This document shows, piece by piece, positions 4,761 to 11,065 of a DNA stretch of 12,369 nt. The DNA is from Rickettsia typhi (lineage in GTDB: Bacteria > Pseudomonadota > Alphaproteobacteria > Rickettsiales > UBA1997). Under the pieces are notes generated by a model. It made no database searches. It was given only the letters and a program-made list of their open reading frames with translations, and was not told the origin of the DNA. The stretch is from positions 1 to 12,369 of the forward strand of contig CAMDGT010000018.1 of the NCBI GenBank assembly GCA_945898025.1, written 5' to 3'. Each line of letters starts with the position of its first letter. The stretch's first letter is position 1. Both the position numbers and the translations under genes were made by a program.

Positions 4761-5904
4761 TAATTTTTAAATCAAAGTTAGGGCATTTAGTAAAATGAGA
4801 CGGGCAAATTCTTGCCGAGCAGTTATTCTTAATATTTTCTAAATCTATTGCTGAATTGAAGCTAAAGCATTTCTTAGCACTTGAAAAATCTGTTGCTAAA
4901 CAAATTTTTGTTAGTGATTCAATAAAAAATTGATTAAAATTTAAAGAGTCAACTCTTATATAATCAGTTGCTCCAAGCTCCTTTGCTTTATTTCTATAGT
5001 CAATATCAAGCTCAACTAATGTTTCTGAATGATCTGAAACAAAGCTTACTGGAATTATTGCGGGAATTTTTTTATCATCAATCGCTCTCTTTATTTCGCT
5101 ATCTAGGCTTGGAGAAGTCCATTTTTTAGGCCCCACTTTTGATTGATAGCACAGCTGATAATCTAATTCACTGATATTGATATTAAGTTTTTTGGCAAGA
5201 TTATCAATTATTACTTCAGTTGTTTTTTGTGCTTGAAAAGAGTAAGGGTCCCCTTTGTCGATTATGTCTTGAGGAAGGCCGTGAGCAGAAAATAAAAAAC
5301 GAATTTGACTAATTTCATTTGTTTTGCTTTCAAGATTTTTATCAATTGCTTTTTTAATTAATTGGCTATGAGCCTCAATAAATTCAGGTTGCAAAGGGTA
5401 GCAACATACAGCCTTAATTTTAGCATTAAGTTTATTTTTATATTTTTTAAATTCTTGATAAAAATCATTGATTGATGATTCGCTGGTAGTTGTTGAAAAT
5501 TGAGGATATAAAGGCAGTAATATTATTTTGTTTGGTTGATATTGATTAACTTTTTCCATTATTTCTTTTGAAAATGGGTGCCAATATCGCATTGCAACAA
5601 AAACCTTAAACTTGCCGTGATTGTTTAGTTCGGCTTCAATTAAACTTGCCTGTTTTGTTGTTATTTCAAGAAGCGGAGATTTATTATCAATTTGACGATA
5701 AATATTTTGTGATTTTTTGTTTCTTAAGGTGCTAATTAATGTTGCAATTAGAAATCTGAATGGTTGGGGTAGGTTAATAATCGCTTTATCATTGAATAAG
5801 TTGAATAAAAATTTTTGAACCGATGATAATTTATCTGGTCCACCAAGATTGAATAATACTACAGCTGTTTTATCTTCTTTATTTAATTCTGAAAATTTTA
5901 TCAT
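4753..5904 (-). CDS. hemH: Ferrochelatase
   Basis: Ferrochelatase inserts Fe2+ into protoporphyrin IX, the last step of haem synthesis. Landmarks in order: TAVVLFNLGGPDKLSSVQKF (13-32), VAMRYWHPF (103-111), ILLPLYPQFSTTTS (128-141), LFSAHGLP (204-211) with the active-site H208, YQLCYQSKVGPKKWTSPS (249-266), and PVSFVSDHSETLVELDIDY (285-303) with the catalytic E294. The protein has 383 residues, some 40-60 more than E. coli-type enzymes. The excess is a C-terminal tail with cysteines at 346, 362, 367 and 374 (C-x4-C-x6-C). Some ferrochelatases, including an alphaproteobacterial one, carry a [2Fe-2S] cluster on C-terminal cysteines; that it applies here is inference. The ATG overlaps the leuS TGA as ATGA. 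Haem synthesis argues that the organism respires. Confidence 0.96.
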   Translation of the reverse strand: MIKFSELNKEDKTAVVLFNLGGPDKLSSVQKFLFNLFNDKAIINLPQPFRFLIATLISTLRNKKSQNIYRQIDNKSPLLEITTKQASLIEAELNNHGKFKVFVAMRYWHPFSKEIMEKVNQYQPNKIILLPLYPQFSTTTSESSINDFYQEFKKYKNKLNAKIKAVCCYPLQPEFIEAHSQLIKKAIDKNLESKTNEISQIRFLFSAHGLPQDIIDKGDPYSFQAQKTTEVIIDNLAKKLNINISELDYQLCYQSKVGPKKWTSPSLDSEIKRAIDDKKIPAIIPVSFVSDHSETLVELDIDYRNKAKELGATDYIRVDSLNFNQFFIESLTKICLATDFSSAKKCFSFNSAIDLENIKNNCSARICPSHFTKCPNFDLKIND

Positions 5905-8900
5905 AATACAAAATTTATTAATTTGTTGGGCACGATTATTATTTTTTTAATTATATTGTTGCCAATAAATTTTTTTACATTCTCGCATTCTAGAGCTTGT
6001 TTTTTAAGAGTTTCATCATCAAGATCTTGCTTTACTTTGATTAAACTTCTTAATTTACTTGCAACTTGTATTGCTATAGTCACCTCGTTATTGCTGATTA
6101 ATTCTTTATCAAACTTAGGAATATCTGCTTCGGAAATTAAATTTTTATTACCTAATTTTTCCCACAATTCTTCACTTAAATGAGGGGTTATAGGAGAAAT
6201 CAGCAATAATAAATTTTTAAAACTAAGTAATATGGTTCGTTGATATTCAATATTTTGTTGTGATTTTGATTCATTTATCAATTTTTCAGTGGCATTAGAA
6301 AGCTCGCGAATTTTTGCAATTGCTCTATTGAAACCATTATTTTGATATTCGTTAATTACCGCTTCAATTGTTTGGTGATTGAGGTGGATAAGTTCTTGTT
6401 CTGATTGATTGCAGTTGATAAAGTTTGGCTCTTGTGAATTTTTAATTAATTCTTTGTCGAATTCAAAATAAGAAATCATTCTCCATATTCTGTTTATATA
6501 TCGCCAACATCCATCTATACCGCTTTCTGACCATTCTAGGTCTCTTGCGGGTGGGCTATCGGAAAGCATGAATAAGCGGGCAGTGTCGGCTCCATAATTT
6601 TCAATAATTGAAGCTGGTTCAACAACATTCTTCTTTGATTTACTCATCTTTTCACTTCTACCAACCGAAACTTCTTCTTTGGTTTCTTGATGAATAAATC
6701 GATTTTCATCTATTTTTATAACTTCTTGAGGGTGAACCCATTTTCCATTCTTATTTTTGTAGGTTTGATGGCATACCATTCCTTGAGTAAGTAGATTCTT
6801 AAAAGGCTCCTCGCAATTAAGATATCCACATTTTTTTAGTGCTTTAACAAAAAATCTAGCATAAAGTAAATGCAATACTGCATGTTCTACCCCGCCAATA
6901 TATTGATCTACGGGCATAATTTTGTTGACTATATCTTGTTCAAAAGCTTTATCTTTTGGTTGAGATATGTAGCGAAGAAAATACCAAGAACTTTCAAAAA
7001 AAGTATCAAAACTATCTGTTTCGCGAATCGCCTTCATTCCATTGTAAGTAGTGTGTTTCCAAGTTGGATGATTGTCTAGGGGGTTTCCAGAGCCTTTAAA
7101 TTGAACATCTTTTGGCAAAGTAACGGGTAGTTCTTCTTCTGGTACAGGAACAACTGATCCATCTTCGAGGTATAATATTGGGATTGGACAGCCCCAATAT
7201 CTTTGTCTAGAGATTCCCCAGTCTCTGAGGCGATAATTTATTTTTCTCTCTGCAATATTTTCATTGATAAGTTTTTCAGAAATTTCATTTTTTGCAGTTT
7301 GATTGTCAAGACCGTTTAAAAAATGAGAATTTATCATCACTCCATCTTCGGTAAATGGTTGCGAGATATTGATTTCATTGTTTTGAAATAGCTTATCAAG
7401 AAGTTCTTGATTATTTTTACTTTCTTGATGCAGTTTGATTGTTTTAGGGGTTATTGAGCTGTAAATGCCGAGATTGTTTATTTCCCCTAGTTTTTCATCT
7501 GCCTGATAGGCCAAAACTTCTTGTTCAATTGAAAAATCAGCATTAACTTCTGCAGGTTTGTTGCCTCTTACATCAAGGCGGATCCATTTTTTAAGTTTCT
7601 TAATGTAAACTACATTAAGTGTGTGAATAATTTTTTTTGACGATTGATCGTCTAGTAAAAGCAGTTGATCAGAGAAACCGCAGGGAATTTTTAAACCTCT
7701 TAAAATTGCTGTAAATAGGGTTGATTTTCCAAAGCAAAAACCTAATTGATTTTTTAAGACATCGCTTGCAATGATTTGAGGTATTTCATTGATGTATTCA
7801 CTGCTATCCATTACATGATTTATTTCATCTCTTACGAAGTGGTAACAGGCTCTAATGATTTCTATTTCATCATCTAAATTTATTATTTTAGATTTAATTT
7901 GCTCAATAGTTTTTTTAATTTCTGGGTGAGAAAAGTTGATAATAATGGTTTCCTCAAGGAAATCATCAAGATTAGCAACGACCTTTTTAATTGGTAGTTG
8001 ATATTTTTTAGCAAATTCAAAATCTCTTTCATCGTGAGCAGGGCAGGCGAATATTGCTCCCGTGCCATAATCCATTAATACAAAATTAGCAATATAAATT
8101 GGAATTTGTTGAGTTTTATCAGTGGGGTGGAAGGCTCTTAAACCTGTATCAATACCAATTTTTTCTTGTTTTTCAATGGTTTGTTCATCAATTGCATTTA
8201 AATTGCATTTAGCAATGAAATCTTTAATTTCAGCATTGTTTTTAGCCATTTCTTGGGCTAATTGATGATAAGGAGATATGCCAATAAACGATGCTCCAAA
8301 GAGAGTTTCTGGGCGAGTAGTGTAGATTTTTATTGAGTCGATATCATTGATTTTGCCATTAATTTTAAAATCAACGACAAGCCCTTCGCTTTTGCCAATC
8401 CATTTTTCTTGCATTGATAAAACTCTATCATTCCAGCCTGCAAGATTTTTTAGTTCTTTTAAAAGTTCTTCAGAAAAATCTGAAACTTTTAGAAACCATT
8501 GTTTTAACTTTCTCTTCTCAACTAATGCTCCACTTCTCCACCCCTTTCCATCTATAACCTGTTCATTGGCAAGAACGGTTTGGTCGATTGGATCCCAATT
8601 GACGAATGATTCTTTTTGATAAGCAAGGCCATTTTTTAGAAAATCAAGAAAGATCTTTTGTTCGTGTTTGTAATATTCTGGTAAACAGGTTACAACTTCC
8701 CGTTCCCAATCTATTGATATACCAATAGATTTTAACTCTTGACGCATCTGCGCTACATTTTTAAGAGTCCATTCTTCAGGATGTATTTTATGTTCGAGTG
8801 CGGCATTTTCTGCAGGCAATCCAAATGAATCAAAGCCCATTGGGTGCAAAACATTAAAACCTTGCATTCTGCGAAATCTTGCAATAACATCGCCAATTGC

Positions 8901-9077
8901 ATAATTTCTAAGATGTCCCATGTGTATCCTTCCAGAAGGGTAAGGAAACATTTCTAAAACATAATATTTTTCTTTTTTGGAATCGTTGTCGAATTTAAAG
9001 ATTTGTTTTTCTTCCCAGATCTTTTGCCATTTTTTTTCGCTATTGCGGTGATTGTAATTTGAATTATTGCTCTTCAT
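5901..9077 (-). CDS. leuS: Leucyl-tRNA synthetase with a transglutaminase-like domain inserted in the editing domain
   Basis: LeuRS charges tRNA-Leu and removes misactivated amino acids in its CP1 editing domain. The class I signatures are HMGH (52-55) and KMSKS (810-814). The editing core is present: TTRPETLFGASF (253-264, with T258 matching E. coli T252) and PAHDERDFEF (346-355, with D352 matching D345). YRLRDWGISRQRYWG (615-629) marks the return to the catalytic core. FDTFFESSWYF (690-700), ARDLEWSESGIDG (844-856) and the anticodon-binding and C-terminal domains (about 880-1058) follow normally. The protein has 1058 residues against the usual 820-880; residues 371-562 are an extra domain described separately. 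Without them about 866 residues remain, close to E. coli. The frame is open across both junctions. The start lies 14 bases after virB9, and the stop overlaps the hemH start. LeuRS identity is certain; the role of the insert is unknown. Confidence 0.97.
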   Translation of the reverse strand: MKSNNSNYNHRNSEKKWQKIWEEKQIFKFDNDSKKEKYYVLEMFPYPSGRIHMGHLRNYAIGDVIARFRRMQGFNVLHPMGFDSFGLPAENAALEHKIHPEEWTLKNVAQMRQELKSIGISIDWEREVVTCLPEYYKHEQKIFLDFLKNGLAYQKESFVNWDPIDQTVLANEQVIDGKGWRSGALVEKRKLKQWFLKVSDFSEELLKELKNLAGWNDRVLSMQEKWIGKSEGLVVDFKINGKINDIDSIKIYTTRPETLFGASFIGISPYHQLAQEMAKNNAEIKDFIAKCNLNAIDEQTIEKQEKIGIDTGLRAFHPTDKTQQIPIYIANFVLMDYGTGAIFACPAHDERDFEFAKKYQLPIKKVVANLDDFLEETIIINFSHPEIKKTIEQIKSKIINLDDEIEIIRACYHFVRDEINHVMDSSEYINEIPQIIASDVLKNQLGFCFGKSTLFTAILRGLKIPCGFSDQLLLLDDQSSKKIIHTLNVVYIKKLKKWIRLDVRGNKPAEVNADFSIEQEVLAYQADEKLGEINNLGIYSSITPKTIKLHQESKNNQELLDKLFQNNEINISQPFTEDGVMINSHFLNGLDNQTAKNEISEKLINENIAERKINYRLRDWGISRQRYWGCPIPILYLEDGSVVPVPEEELPVTLPKDVQFKGSGNPLDNHPTWKHTTYNGMKAIRETDSFDTFFESSWYFLRYISQPKDKAFEQDIVNKIMPVDQYIGGVEHAVLHLLYARFFVKALKKCGYLNCEEPFKNLLTQGMVCHQTYKNKNGKWVHPQEVIKIDENRFIHQETKEEVSVGRSEKMSKSKKNVVEPASIIENYGADTARLFMLSDSPPARDLEWSESGIDGCWRYINRIWRMISYFEFDKELIKNSQEPNFINCNQSEQELIHLNHQTIEAVINEYQNNGFNRAIAKIRELSNATEKLINESKSQQNIEYQRTILLSFKNLLLLISPITPHLSEELWEKLGNKNLISEADIPKFDKELISNNEVTIAIQVASKLRSLIKVKQDLDDETLKKQALECENVKKFIGNNIIKKIIIVPNKLINFVL
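7392..7967 (-). other. Transglutaminase-like domain inserted in LeuRS (residues about 371-562)
   Basis: This segment of leuS has no counterpart in standard LeuRS, which has only a short connector between the IKPVI-like strand and the block that here reads ISQPFTEDGVMINS (571-584). It resembles a whole bacterial transglutaminase-like protein. FLEETIIINFSHPEI (373-387) is the usual N-terminus of such proteins. CYHFVRDEINHVMD (411-424) follows. ASDVLKNQLGFCFGKSTLF (437-455) carries the nucleophile C448, and GLKIPCGFSDQ (461-471) comes next. IHTLNVVYI (484-492) carries H485, and WIRLDVRGNKP (498-508) carries D502. The end, IYSSITPKTIKLHQ (538-551), also matches the free-standing family's tail. 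The Cys-His-Asp triad looks complete, so catalytic competence (amidase, protease or acyl transfer type) is possible, but the substrate is unknown. Family assignment is from recalled motif order, not a search. Confidence 0.85.
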
Positions 9078-9091
9078 TTTAGATTTATTTT

Positions 9092-10096
9092 TTAATTAGG
9101 TAGCATCATCATTTTATTATTAGCTTGGCTTTCATTTTGAATTAATGCTGGTGAAGGATTTATCATCGTCATGTTGTTATCAATAATGGGAGTTCTGCCT
9201 TGATTTTTTTGCAAAGTAATATTTTTATTTTTATTATTGACAGATTTAACATTGTAACTTTGATTTAGTTGTCTAGTTGAGTTGTTTTTATTTTGGTCAT
9301 TAGAGTTGCTGGTAGAGTTTTTAGTACTGTAAAGCCTTGAATTATAAACGCACACAATATCTTGACCGCTTCTTAGAGTGAATTGTGGTGCCATTTGCTC
9401 TACAACAATGTAGTCTCCAACTGATCTAAAATTAACTAAAGATTCGAAGCCACTGGAATCAACGGTAAAAATAGCTGGAATTTCAGCATTTTTTCTTGCA
9501 AATTGAAAGTAAGTGAATAGTTGATCGTCAAATACCTTGAGCGGACTAATGCTATTTTCTCCGACATATTGATAGTCAAAATTATATATGCTTAAATCGC
9601 TCATATCTGGCTCATCTGATTTTTCTGATTTATTAAATTCAAGAATATTTTTATCTTCACCTTCTGGATATAAAAATTTAGCAACAAAGACAAGATCTTG
9701 ATCGTTGATTCCCTTCGCTTCTTTTGCTGCGAGTTCAAAATGATAAATTCTTTTATTGGTGATTATGGTCATATTGGTTTCTGAATTATCTTCACCTACT
9801 GGTTTTAAAAATAAACGATTCTCTAAATGTTCAAACATCCATAATGTAGGATTGCCCATTGAAATCGTGCTAATTGATTCTCCTTCGTCAAACTCTATAA
9901 AGCCTTGATAGGTATAATGCCCAATGTAGCGATAAACTTCATTAGGATTATATATATAGCTACGAAATTTTTTTTCACTTCCGAGAAATCTTGGCGTTTG
10001 CGATGCTGAAACGTTATTTGTAGCTAGAGTTGCAAGTAATGCAAATATTAGAAATATTGCTGAAATATTTTTTTTGTTAATAATAAAATTAAACAT
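9092..10096 (-). CDS. virB9: Type IV secretion outer-membrane complex protein VirB9 (VirB9/TrbG/CagX family)
   Basis: VirB9 forms the periplasmic/outer-membrane core complex of type IV secretion systems together with VirB7 and VirB10. Residues 1-31 are a signal peptide: basic start, hydrophobic core ISAIFLIFALLATLA (11-25), probable cleavage after VSA. The N-terminal domain shows YIYNPNEVYRYIGHYTYQGF (47-66), IEFDEGESISTISMG (67-81), then WMFEHLENRLFLKPVGED and NMTIITNKRIYHFEL (108-122). The C-terminal domain spans about 170-251, with YQYVGENSISPLKVFDDQLF (175-194), PAIFTVDSSGFESLVNFR (207-224), VVEQMAPQFTLRSGQ and VCVYN. Thus both VirB9 domains are present. Residues 252-334 are an unusual Asn/Gln/Ser-rich tail. 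The start codon follows the virB8 stop with no gap, and leuS begins 14 bases after the stop. Rickettsiales rvh systems duplicate virB8 and virB9; which copy this is cannot be told here. Confidence 0.9.
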   Translation of the reverse strand: MFNFIINKKNISAIFLIFALLATLATNNVSASQTPRFLGSEKKFRSYIYNPNEVYRYIGHYTYQGFIEFDEGESISTISMGNPTLWMFEHLENRLFLKPVGEDNSETNMTIITNKRIYHFELAAKEAKGINDQDLVFVAKFLYPEGEDKNILEFNKSEKSDEPDMSDLSIYNFDYQYVGENSISPLKVFDDQLFTYFQFARKNAEIPAIFTVDSSGFESLVNFRSVGDYIVVEQMAPQFTLRSGQDIVCVYNSRLYSTKNSTSNSNDQNKNNSTRQLNQSYNVKSVNNKNKNITLQKNQGRTPIIDNNMTMINPSPALIQNESQANNKMMMLPN

Positions 10097-11065
10097 TTAT
10101 TTTTTTACTTTTAGTAATTGATAATCGGTTACAATGAATTTAACTTCTCTATCTTTATCATTTATTGCTTGATGTGATTTATTTTTTTTATAAGAAAATT
10201 TTTCAGTGTCTTTTGTGCCACTAAATTCAAACTTTAATTTGGCGATATAATTTTCTGAGATATCTCTATAGCCTTCTTCGTCAACGATTTTTGTTATTGT
10301 TGTAAAATCAACTTCAGCTTGATTTGGTATTTCTTCTTCAAGGAAAAAGTTTTTTGCTTTTTTTAAGACTTCTTGCGAAGATTTTTTTGTTATCGATGCT
10401 GAGTTGATTATAATTTTTCTCTGAATGTCTTTGCCGATAAAATTTACGGGGCTATTAGGATTATCTGAGCTCATCATATTCTGAAAGTCGCTATAAATTT
10501 TTTTTGATGATAAGTTTCTGATTTTATTAAATCTTTCATTTACTTTGTCAAAAGAAGTTTCTCTATAATCGTAGCTCTCAAATTCTTTAACATAGTAACT
10601 AGCTAGTTTTTTTGCCACTGCCTCATTAAGATTAGTTATTCTAGGGTCGTATTTTTCTTTATCAATTGCTGATTTTGGATGTGGCTTAAGATTTTGTAGA
10701 TAAAAGTGATAGTTTGCTTCATCGATTGAACGAATAAAAATAGGCTTCTTTTCAATTAGAGGAAATATATAGCTCAACATTGAGTATAGACAATATACTA
10801 TTAGAGCCGATACTAAACTTGCAATTAACAGTAAGCTTCTTTCATTGATTGGATTTATATATCGAAAAATATACCAATTAATGGCATCTTTAAAATATTC
10901 GCGATTAGAAACCGATTCTTTAATAAAAGAATCGTATTCTTCATATTCTTGATGCTTATTAAGTGGTATTGCTTTTGAGACCCTATAAATTCTGCCTTGA
11001 TTTGGCGAATTATCTGATTTTATTGGTGAGTTTGAAGGTTTTTGTTCTAAATTTTTGTGCTCCAT
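10097..11065 (-). CDS. virB8: Type IV secretion inner-membrane protein VirB8
   Basis: VirB8 is a bitopic inner-membrane assembly factor with a periplasmic NTF2-like domain. The visible order fits: a cytoplasmic N-terminus of about 76 polar residues; one membrane span at about 77-103 (LLLIASLVSALIVYCLYSML and onward); then a periplasmic domain containing LNEAVAKKLASYYVKEFESY (146-165), a helix typical of VirB8. Further on are IQRKIIINSASI (214-225), QAEVDFTTITK (249-259), YIAKLKFEFSG (273-283) and a terminal VKFIVTDYQLLKVKK, matching the family's final strand. Length is 322 residues against about 230-240 for Agrobacterium VirB8; the excess lies mainly in the N-terminus and loops. Adjacency to virB9 with no gap strongly supports the call. 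It is the first gene of the virB8-virB9-leuS-hemH-ybeY block and has a good promoter upstream. Confidence 0.86.
   Translation of the reverse strand: MEHKNLEQKPSNSPIKSDNSPNQGRIYRVSKAIPLNKHQEYEEYDSFIKESVSNREYFKDAINWYIFRYINPINERSLLLIASLVSALIVYCLYSMLSYIFPLIEKKPIFIRSIDEANYHFYLQNLKPHPKSAIDKEKYDPRITNLNEAVAKKLASYYVKEFESYDYRETSFDKVNERFNKIRNLSSKKIYSDFQNMMSSDNPNSPVNFIGKDIQRKIIINSASITKKSSQEVLKKAKNFFLEEEIPNQAEVDFTTITKIVDEEGYRDISENYIAKLKFEFSGTKDTEKFSYKKNKSHQAINDKDREVKFIVTDYQLLKVKK

Follow-up and report, generated by a model that had tools for sequence, protein, structure and literature searches.

A transglutaminase-like protein nested in the editing domain of a rickettsial leucyl-tRNA synthetase

Architecture of the leuS locus

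We analyzed a stretch of 12,369 nucleotides from a member of the Rickettsiales (GenBank assembly GCA_945898025.1, contig CAMDGT010000018.1, recorded as Rickettsia typhi), hereafter called the window, which carries a leuS gene for a leucyl-tRNA synthetase (LeuRS) with an inserted transglutaminase-like (TGL) domain. The gene, delimited by its open reading frame (ORF) and by Pfam and NCBIfam profiles, occupies positions 5901–9077 of the minus strand, on which all features within it are given below, and encodes 1058 amino acids that matched the LeuRS family TIGR00396 with 1036 bits (NCBIfam cut-off, 548). Pfam placed the CP1 editing domain (tRNA-synt_1_2, PF13603; E = 5.6e-62) at residues 225–373 (7959–8405) and Transglut_core (PF01841) at residues 400–502 (7572–7880), after which the LeuRS domains resumed; alignments to the E. 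coli LeuRS chain 3zgz_A and to relatives without the TGL domain put the end of the CP1 region at approximately residues 579–610 (7248–7343). The initial annotation of this locus had proposed that a TGL-like protein at residues 371–562 interrupts the editing domain, and the PF01841 match between LeuRS segments bears this out. Measured against TGL-less relatives, the inserted protein spans approximately residues 370–568 (7374–7970), which leaves the proposed N-terminal boundary in place and moves the C-terminal one out by a few residues.

Outside the insert the protein aligned normally with LeuRS, also as proposed. Residues 7–371 and 572–1057 corresponded to positions 24–384 and 392–878 of 3zgz_A, so that the E. 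coli enzyme has 7 residues where the window protein has a 200-residue CP1 domain. The 3zgz_A chain is 880 residues long and we take native E. coli LeuRS to have 860, which would make the first 20 residues of the chain possibly a tag; if they are, the insertion site corresponds to native residues 364–372, ~20 residues past the conserved editing aspartate, presumably Asp345 in E. coli numbering. With bacterial (class Ia, TIGR00396) LeuRS the window protein shares the HMGH, KMSKS, threonine-rich and HDxRD editing motifs, the anticodon domain and the domain order. The HIGH motif (HMGH; H52, G54, H55), KMSKS (K810–S814) and the editing residues T253, T254 and D352 were each invariant in 39 aligned rows, and these conserved motifs suggest that the window enzyme would leucylate tRNA-Leu. 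No second LeuRS was found in the window's genome, which is assembled in 170 contigs and 79% complete.

The inserted TGL domain

The Transglut_core match exceeded its curated cut-off (23) both in the whole protein (35.7 bits, E = 1.2e-8) and on the insert alone (39.4 bits, E = 8.1e-10), and all 36 members of an alignment of inserted and free-standing forms matched PF01841 (E 0.01). AlphaFold2 modeled the insert as a well-folded papain/transglutaminase-like unit with a pLDDT (predicted local distance difference test) of 94.8, which predicts an independent domain. A model of the whole protein had a pTM (predicted template modeling score) of 0.55, a level at which it does not establish that the domain projects from CP1. 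Its scores, the uniform matching of its relatives and the predicted fold together led us to reject a chance profile match. The insert carries a Cys-His-Asp triad in the expected order, comprising a putative catalytic Cys448 (codon at 7734–7736) directly before a predicted helix at residues 449–461, His485 (7623–7625) and Asp502 (7572–7574).

The insert was assigned to no NCBIfam family, and a phmmer search of it against PDB sequences returned no real match (best E = 0.62), so a comparison of folds was needed. The solved TGL folds (a putative cysteine protease from Cytophaga, 3isr; S. pyogenes TglA, 9crn; and human TGM2, TGM3 and FXIII) were 11–16% identical to the insert, a level at which function cannot be transferred. 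PF01841 members have diverse activities (PMC10318531), so that membership does not point to one substrate.

Much closer were free-standing proteins of ~200 amino acids with PF01841, encoded in Bacillota, Chloroflexota, Spirochaetota and other bacteria as separate ORFs of 190–347 amino acids (29 examined), which resembled the insert nearly end to end with 33–50% identity and the same triad. One of them, P0041 (214 amino acids), covered 98% of the insert and aligned from near its own N terminus to near its own C terminus, including the N-terminal FLE-like and C-terminal IY segments that the initial annotation had singled out when it argued for a whole protein rather than a fragment. In 70 loci of free TGL genes (L060–L129, flanks of up to 3.5 kb), no ORF cluster other than TGL was present in more than six loci. 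A viral origin of the insert was considered and rejected, in that 14 pattern matches in viral contigs included no relative.

Recurrence and distribution of the fusion

Additional domains of aminoacyl-tRNA synthetases are usually appended at an end or are small inserts. The insert region matched 40 LeuRS-related proteins (protein clusters), of which 38 list both PF13603 and PF01841; P0026, a 668-amino-acid fragment, combines PF01841 with further domains of LeuRS; for P0039, no PF01841 is listed. Among the genomes of 49 relatives, the window's own included, the insert found matches in five, four of them inside LeuRS, and among 343 genomes of the order it did so in 15, of which 13 had the match inside LeuRS. 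All 13 belong to the window's family, in four genera, and one of the fused copies lies on a contig of 766,990 bases. These sets overlap, since the 40 clusters come partly from the same genomes, the ten named fused loci are also among the genome rows, G301/P0002 and G307/P0028 are identical, and G302/P0017 are identical in the TGL domain. Among the TGL-less genomes of the order, the only insert matches were the other two of the 15, a separate 298-amino-acid ORF (G025) and a weak match (G153). The ten named fused records were labeled as Rickettsiales or Rickettsiaceae (four), Rickettsia typhi (two), Alphaproteobacteria (two), Pelagibacterales (one) and Rhizobium (one), and the odd labels among them are probably wrong.

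A LeuRS match was present in 57 of the 61 genomes of the family. No second LeuRS was seen in the 13 fused genomes, several of them incomplete, and the extra LeuRS rows of G001, G013, G291 and G293 were pieces of one gene each. G020 has, besides a LeuRS frame on its contig C3, a second and more divergent LeuRS-like frame of 803 amino acids on C26 (L181), a paralogue or contamination.

Across the Alphaproteobacteria, 126 of 142 genomes, again including the window's, had a LeuRS match (E 1e-120), and the rows that spanned the 824-amino-acid query end to end measured at most ~2.66 kb, so they held no insert of TGL size; of the partial rows, four were fetched. Short low-complexity stretches stood at the first CP1 slot of G354 and G416, G357 had a loop of ~65 residues at the TGL slot that was unlike TGL by eye, and G428, covered at the first slot, had a row in which 581 residues of the query extended over 1,863 bases. 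We did not find a LeuRS with an inserted TGL domain described in open-licence PMC papers; unusual domain fusions of P. falciparum synthetases have been published (PMC2813244).

Evolutionary history of the insert

In a TGL tree, 48 fused and 32 free sequences (the latter a sample of the best matches) separated fully with support of 100/99, from a bootstrap that had not fully settled. Distances in the TGL domain and in the LeuRS core were correlated across 47 fused rows (Mantel r 0.72, 0/2000). A LeuRS tree built without the slot columns placed all 47 TGL rows, 12 of them from genomes and 35 from proteins that the insert had retrieved, inside one clade of 71 rows (starred, 99), together with 24 TGL-less rows that were all genomes. 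The duplicates or fragments P0001, P0004, P0018, P0026 and P0031 were omitted from both trees, the LeuRS tree also excluded G291, and the partial LeuRS matches of G021, G283, G300 and G304 were left unused. The TGL state changed nine times on the LeuRS tree, eight of these changes being forced by starred branches; the tree was built quickly and has long branches and weak forks, which makes any number of losses an approximation, and a count of changes cannot tell gain from loss.

These sequence comparisons support a single capture, in which a complete free TGL protein would have entered a CP1 loop of leuS once and in frame, in an ancestor within the window's family of Rickettsiales. The simplest reading is one gain followed by largely vertical descent and several losses that left loops like the ones in G296, G303, G306 and G015. 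The loops of separate loss lineages are similar, which could also reflect exchange of TGL-less or TGL-bearing alleles. To look for recombination of a local TGL-less allele, separate trees were made from the N-terminal part, the CP1 flank and the C-terminal part (73 rows), on which the TGL label changed 14, 12 and 12 times, respectively. The label was not specially clustered beside the insert, though trees this poorly resolved cannot decide between exchange and loss.

Other domains in CP1 of sister genera

The LeuRS genes of sister genera hold other whole small domains in their CP1 loops, like the TGL case in this respect but with unrelated folds and in few genomes each. Near query residue 243, G011 (L038), G025 (L039) and G287 (L178) carry an in-frame DUF559/Vsr-like endonuclease flanked by TPLTKGGKG-type repeats, recognized by Pfam in the first and by sequence in the other two, an arrangement suggestive of a mobile nuclease element lodged in an essential gene. 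An ASCH domain occupies the same region in G016 (L040) and G017 (L041) and the TGL slot itself in G019 (L044), with Pfam scores of 21.3, 23.7 and 20.9, the third just below the cut-off of 21.2. The similarity by eye of ASCH-like domains in two CP1 slots suggests either two insertions or movement between slots. Together, the ASCH and DUF559 cases suggest that CP1 loops serve as landing sites in the window's family. Rickettsia palindromic elements likewise add in-frame sequence to rickettsial coding genes, but as short repeats and not as a whole enzyme.

Shorter stretches resembling DUF559 remnants stand at the residue-243 slot of G288 and G021. In the TGL slot, G023 (L042) and G290 (L188) have low-complexity PSPLPSRERG / PSPLRGEGWGEG stretches, possibly repeat elements that landed after loss of the TGL domain.

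Conservation of the insert and its proposed function

Among the 48 fused rows, the putative catalytic Cys was kept in 47 and the His and Asp in all 48. In five usable pairs, dN/dS of the TGL domain was low, at ~0.18, 0.09, 0.07, 0.10 and 0.10, and that of the rest of the gene was ~0.08, 0.08, 0.07, 0.06 and 0.07; two other pairs had saturated dS, and the pair G301–G302 gave no TGL value. Taking as fused-specific any alignment column whose residue occurs in at least 90% of fused and at most 20% of free sequences, we counted 23 such columns, 22 of them within the insert, and 32 shared columns. Examples are Tyr470, Ala450 and Trp423, where the free forms have Asp, Gly and Met. Along the sequence, several fused-specific residues adjoin the catalytic Cys and His, which hints at a changed substrate without demonstrating one.

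The best explanation, in our judgment a probable one, is that the insert is a once-captured, still catalytic and probably re-specialized cysteine amidohydrolase or transamidase that is tethered to LeuRS, useful but dispensable. The TGL domain would fold autonomously as a Cys-His-Asp unit whose ends rejoin the CP1 loop, while aminoacylation and editing would continue despite it, as the conserved LeuRS motifs suggest. It would most likely still act on a protein or small-molecule amide, with a substrate preference probably shifted from that of its free relatives, and LeuRS would be a constantly expressed carrier that places it near translation. It would be useful in some lineages and dispensable in others of the same clade, because those others carry a short loop in its place. 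An apparently active, whole enzyme nested in the editing domain of an essential gene amounts to a natural experiment in domain capture, and relatives with and without it would let one measure directly how it affects charging, editing and growth.

Several observations weigh against this explanation. Among 37 unselected genomes of the clade (G291 counted), only 13 carry the TGL domain and 24 do not, the TGL-less rows having 9–40 residues at the slot (mostly 13–20), so the domain is not essential. Evolution is faster in the insert than in the core (mean p-distance, 0.40 versus 0.25), and P0039 has kept the domain with Gly in place of the catalytic Cys, the sole such copy among the 48. Each of these, like the unrelated domains and repeats in two CP1 slots of the same family, would fit a TGL domain that is a passive passenger in a tolerant loop, retained since its misfolding would ruin the essential enzyme around it, with catalysis irrelevant; P0039 is a natural test case for that idea. 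A single clade would, moreover, inherit fused-specific differences in any event. Since most of the unselected genomes in the clade are without the domain, we raised our estimate for a passenger and lowered our confidence in a retained catalyst. We nonetheless consider a passenger unlikely: folding alone would not require so consistent a triad, fused-specific residues lie beside the catalytic Cys and His, and, judging by the short loops of sister lineages, the domain may be lost cleanly, so that retention elsewhere needs a reason.

Going further than a tethered catalyst, one might picture a bifunctional LeuRS in which the captured cysteine enzyme has been retuned to work at or next to charged tRNA, in translation-coupled modification or proofreading, with the CP1 loops of the family as a standing docking site for TGL, ASCH and DUF559; we hold this speculative extension to be rather doubtful. 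Improbable in our view is action in cis on LeuRS chemistry, in which the domain would cleave misacylated tRNA or an aminoacyl ester for proofreading or would modify LeuRS or tRNA-bound substrates. The position of the domain inside CP1 and its conserved putative catalytic residues fit this idea, as may the differences between TGL-bearing and TGL-less rows, uncorrected for relatedness, which peaked in the adjoining CP1 tail (mean 0.257, against means of 0.10–0.20 in other regions) and put residues 364 and 588 among the 18 most different columns. However, the canonical editing residues are conserved alongside the insert and the RD of HDxRD is kept, by eye, in rows without it, so no replacement of editing is needed; nor do the free relatives share a tRNA-related neighbor. 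Very improbable is autoprocessing, by which the domain would cut its own linkers to yield a two-piece LeuRS or a released TGL protein: the fold family includes proteases and the C-side linker is variable, but inspection of the junctions by eye, with no search for intein motifs, showed no common cleavage motif, and CP1 of an essential enzyme would be broken. The chance that the junctions (7392 and 7967 in the initial annotation) are artefacts of assembly or binning, which a fragmented genome might invite, is negligible given the recurrence of the architecture in 13 genomes and 40 protein clusters, the single fused clade and the congruent TGL and LeuRS distances.

Neighboring genes and a separate TGL ORF

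The separate TGL ORF of G025 (L046, contig C135) runs into GNAT-like sequence, lies beside epimerase- and aminopeptidase-like ORFs (named by eye) and grouped with the free forms in the TGL tree; its contig is possibly a contaminant. In the window, leuS sits between hemH-like and virB9/virB8-like genes, named by reading their translations with no search run; the latter are two adjacent ORFs at 9092–11065, upstream of leuS and on the same strand, that resemble VirB9 and VirB8 of type IV secretion.
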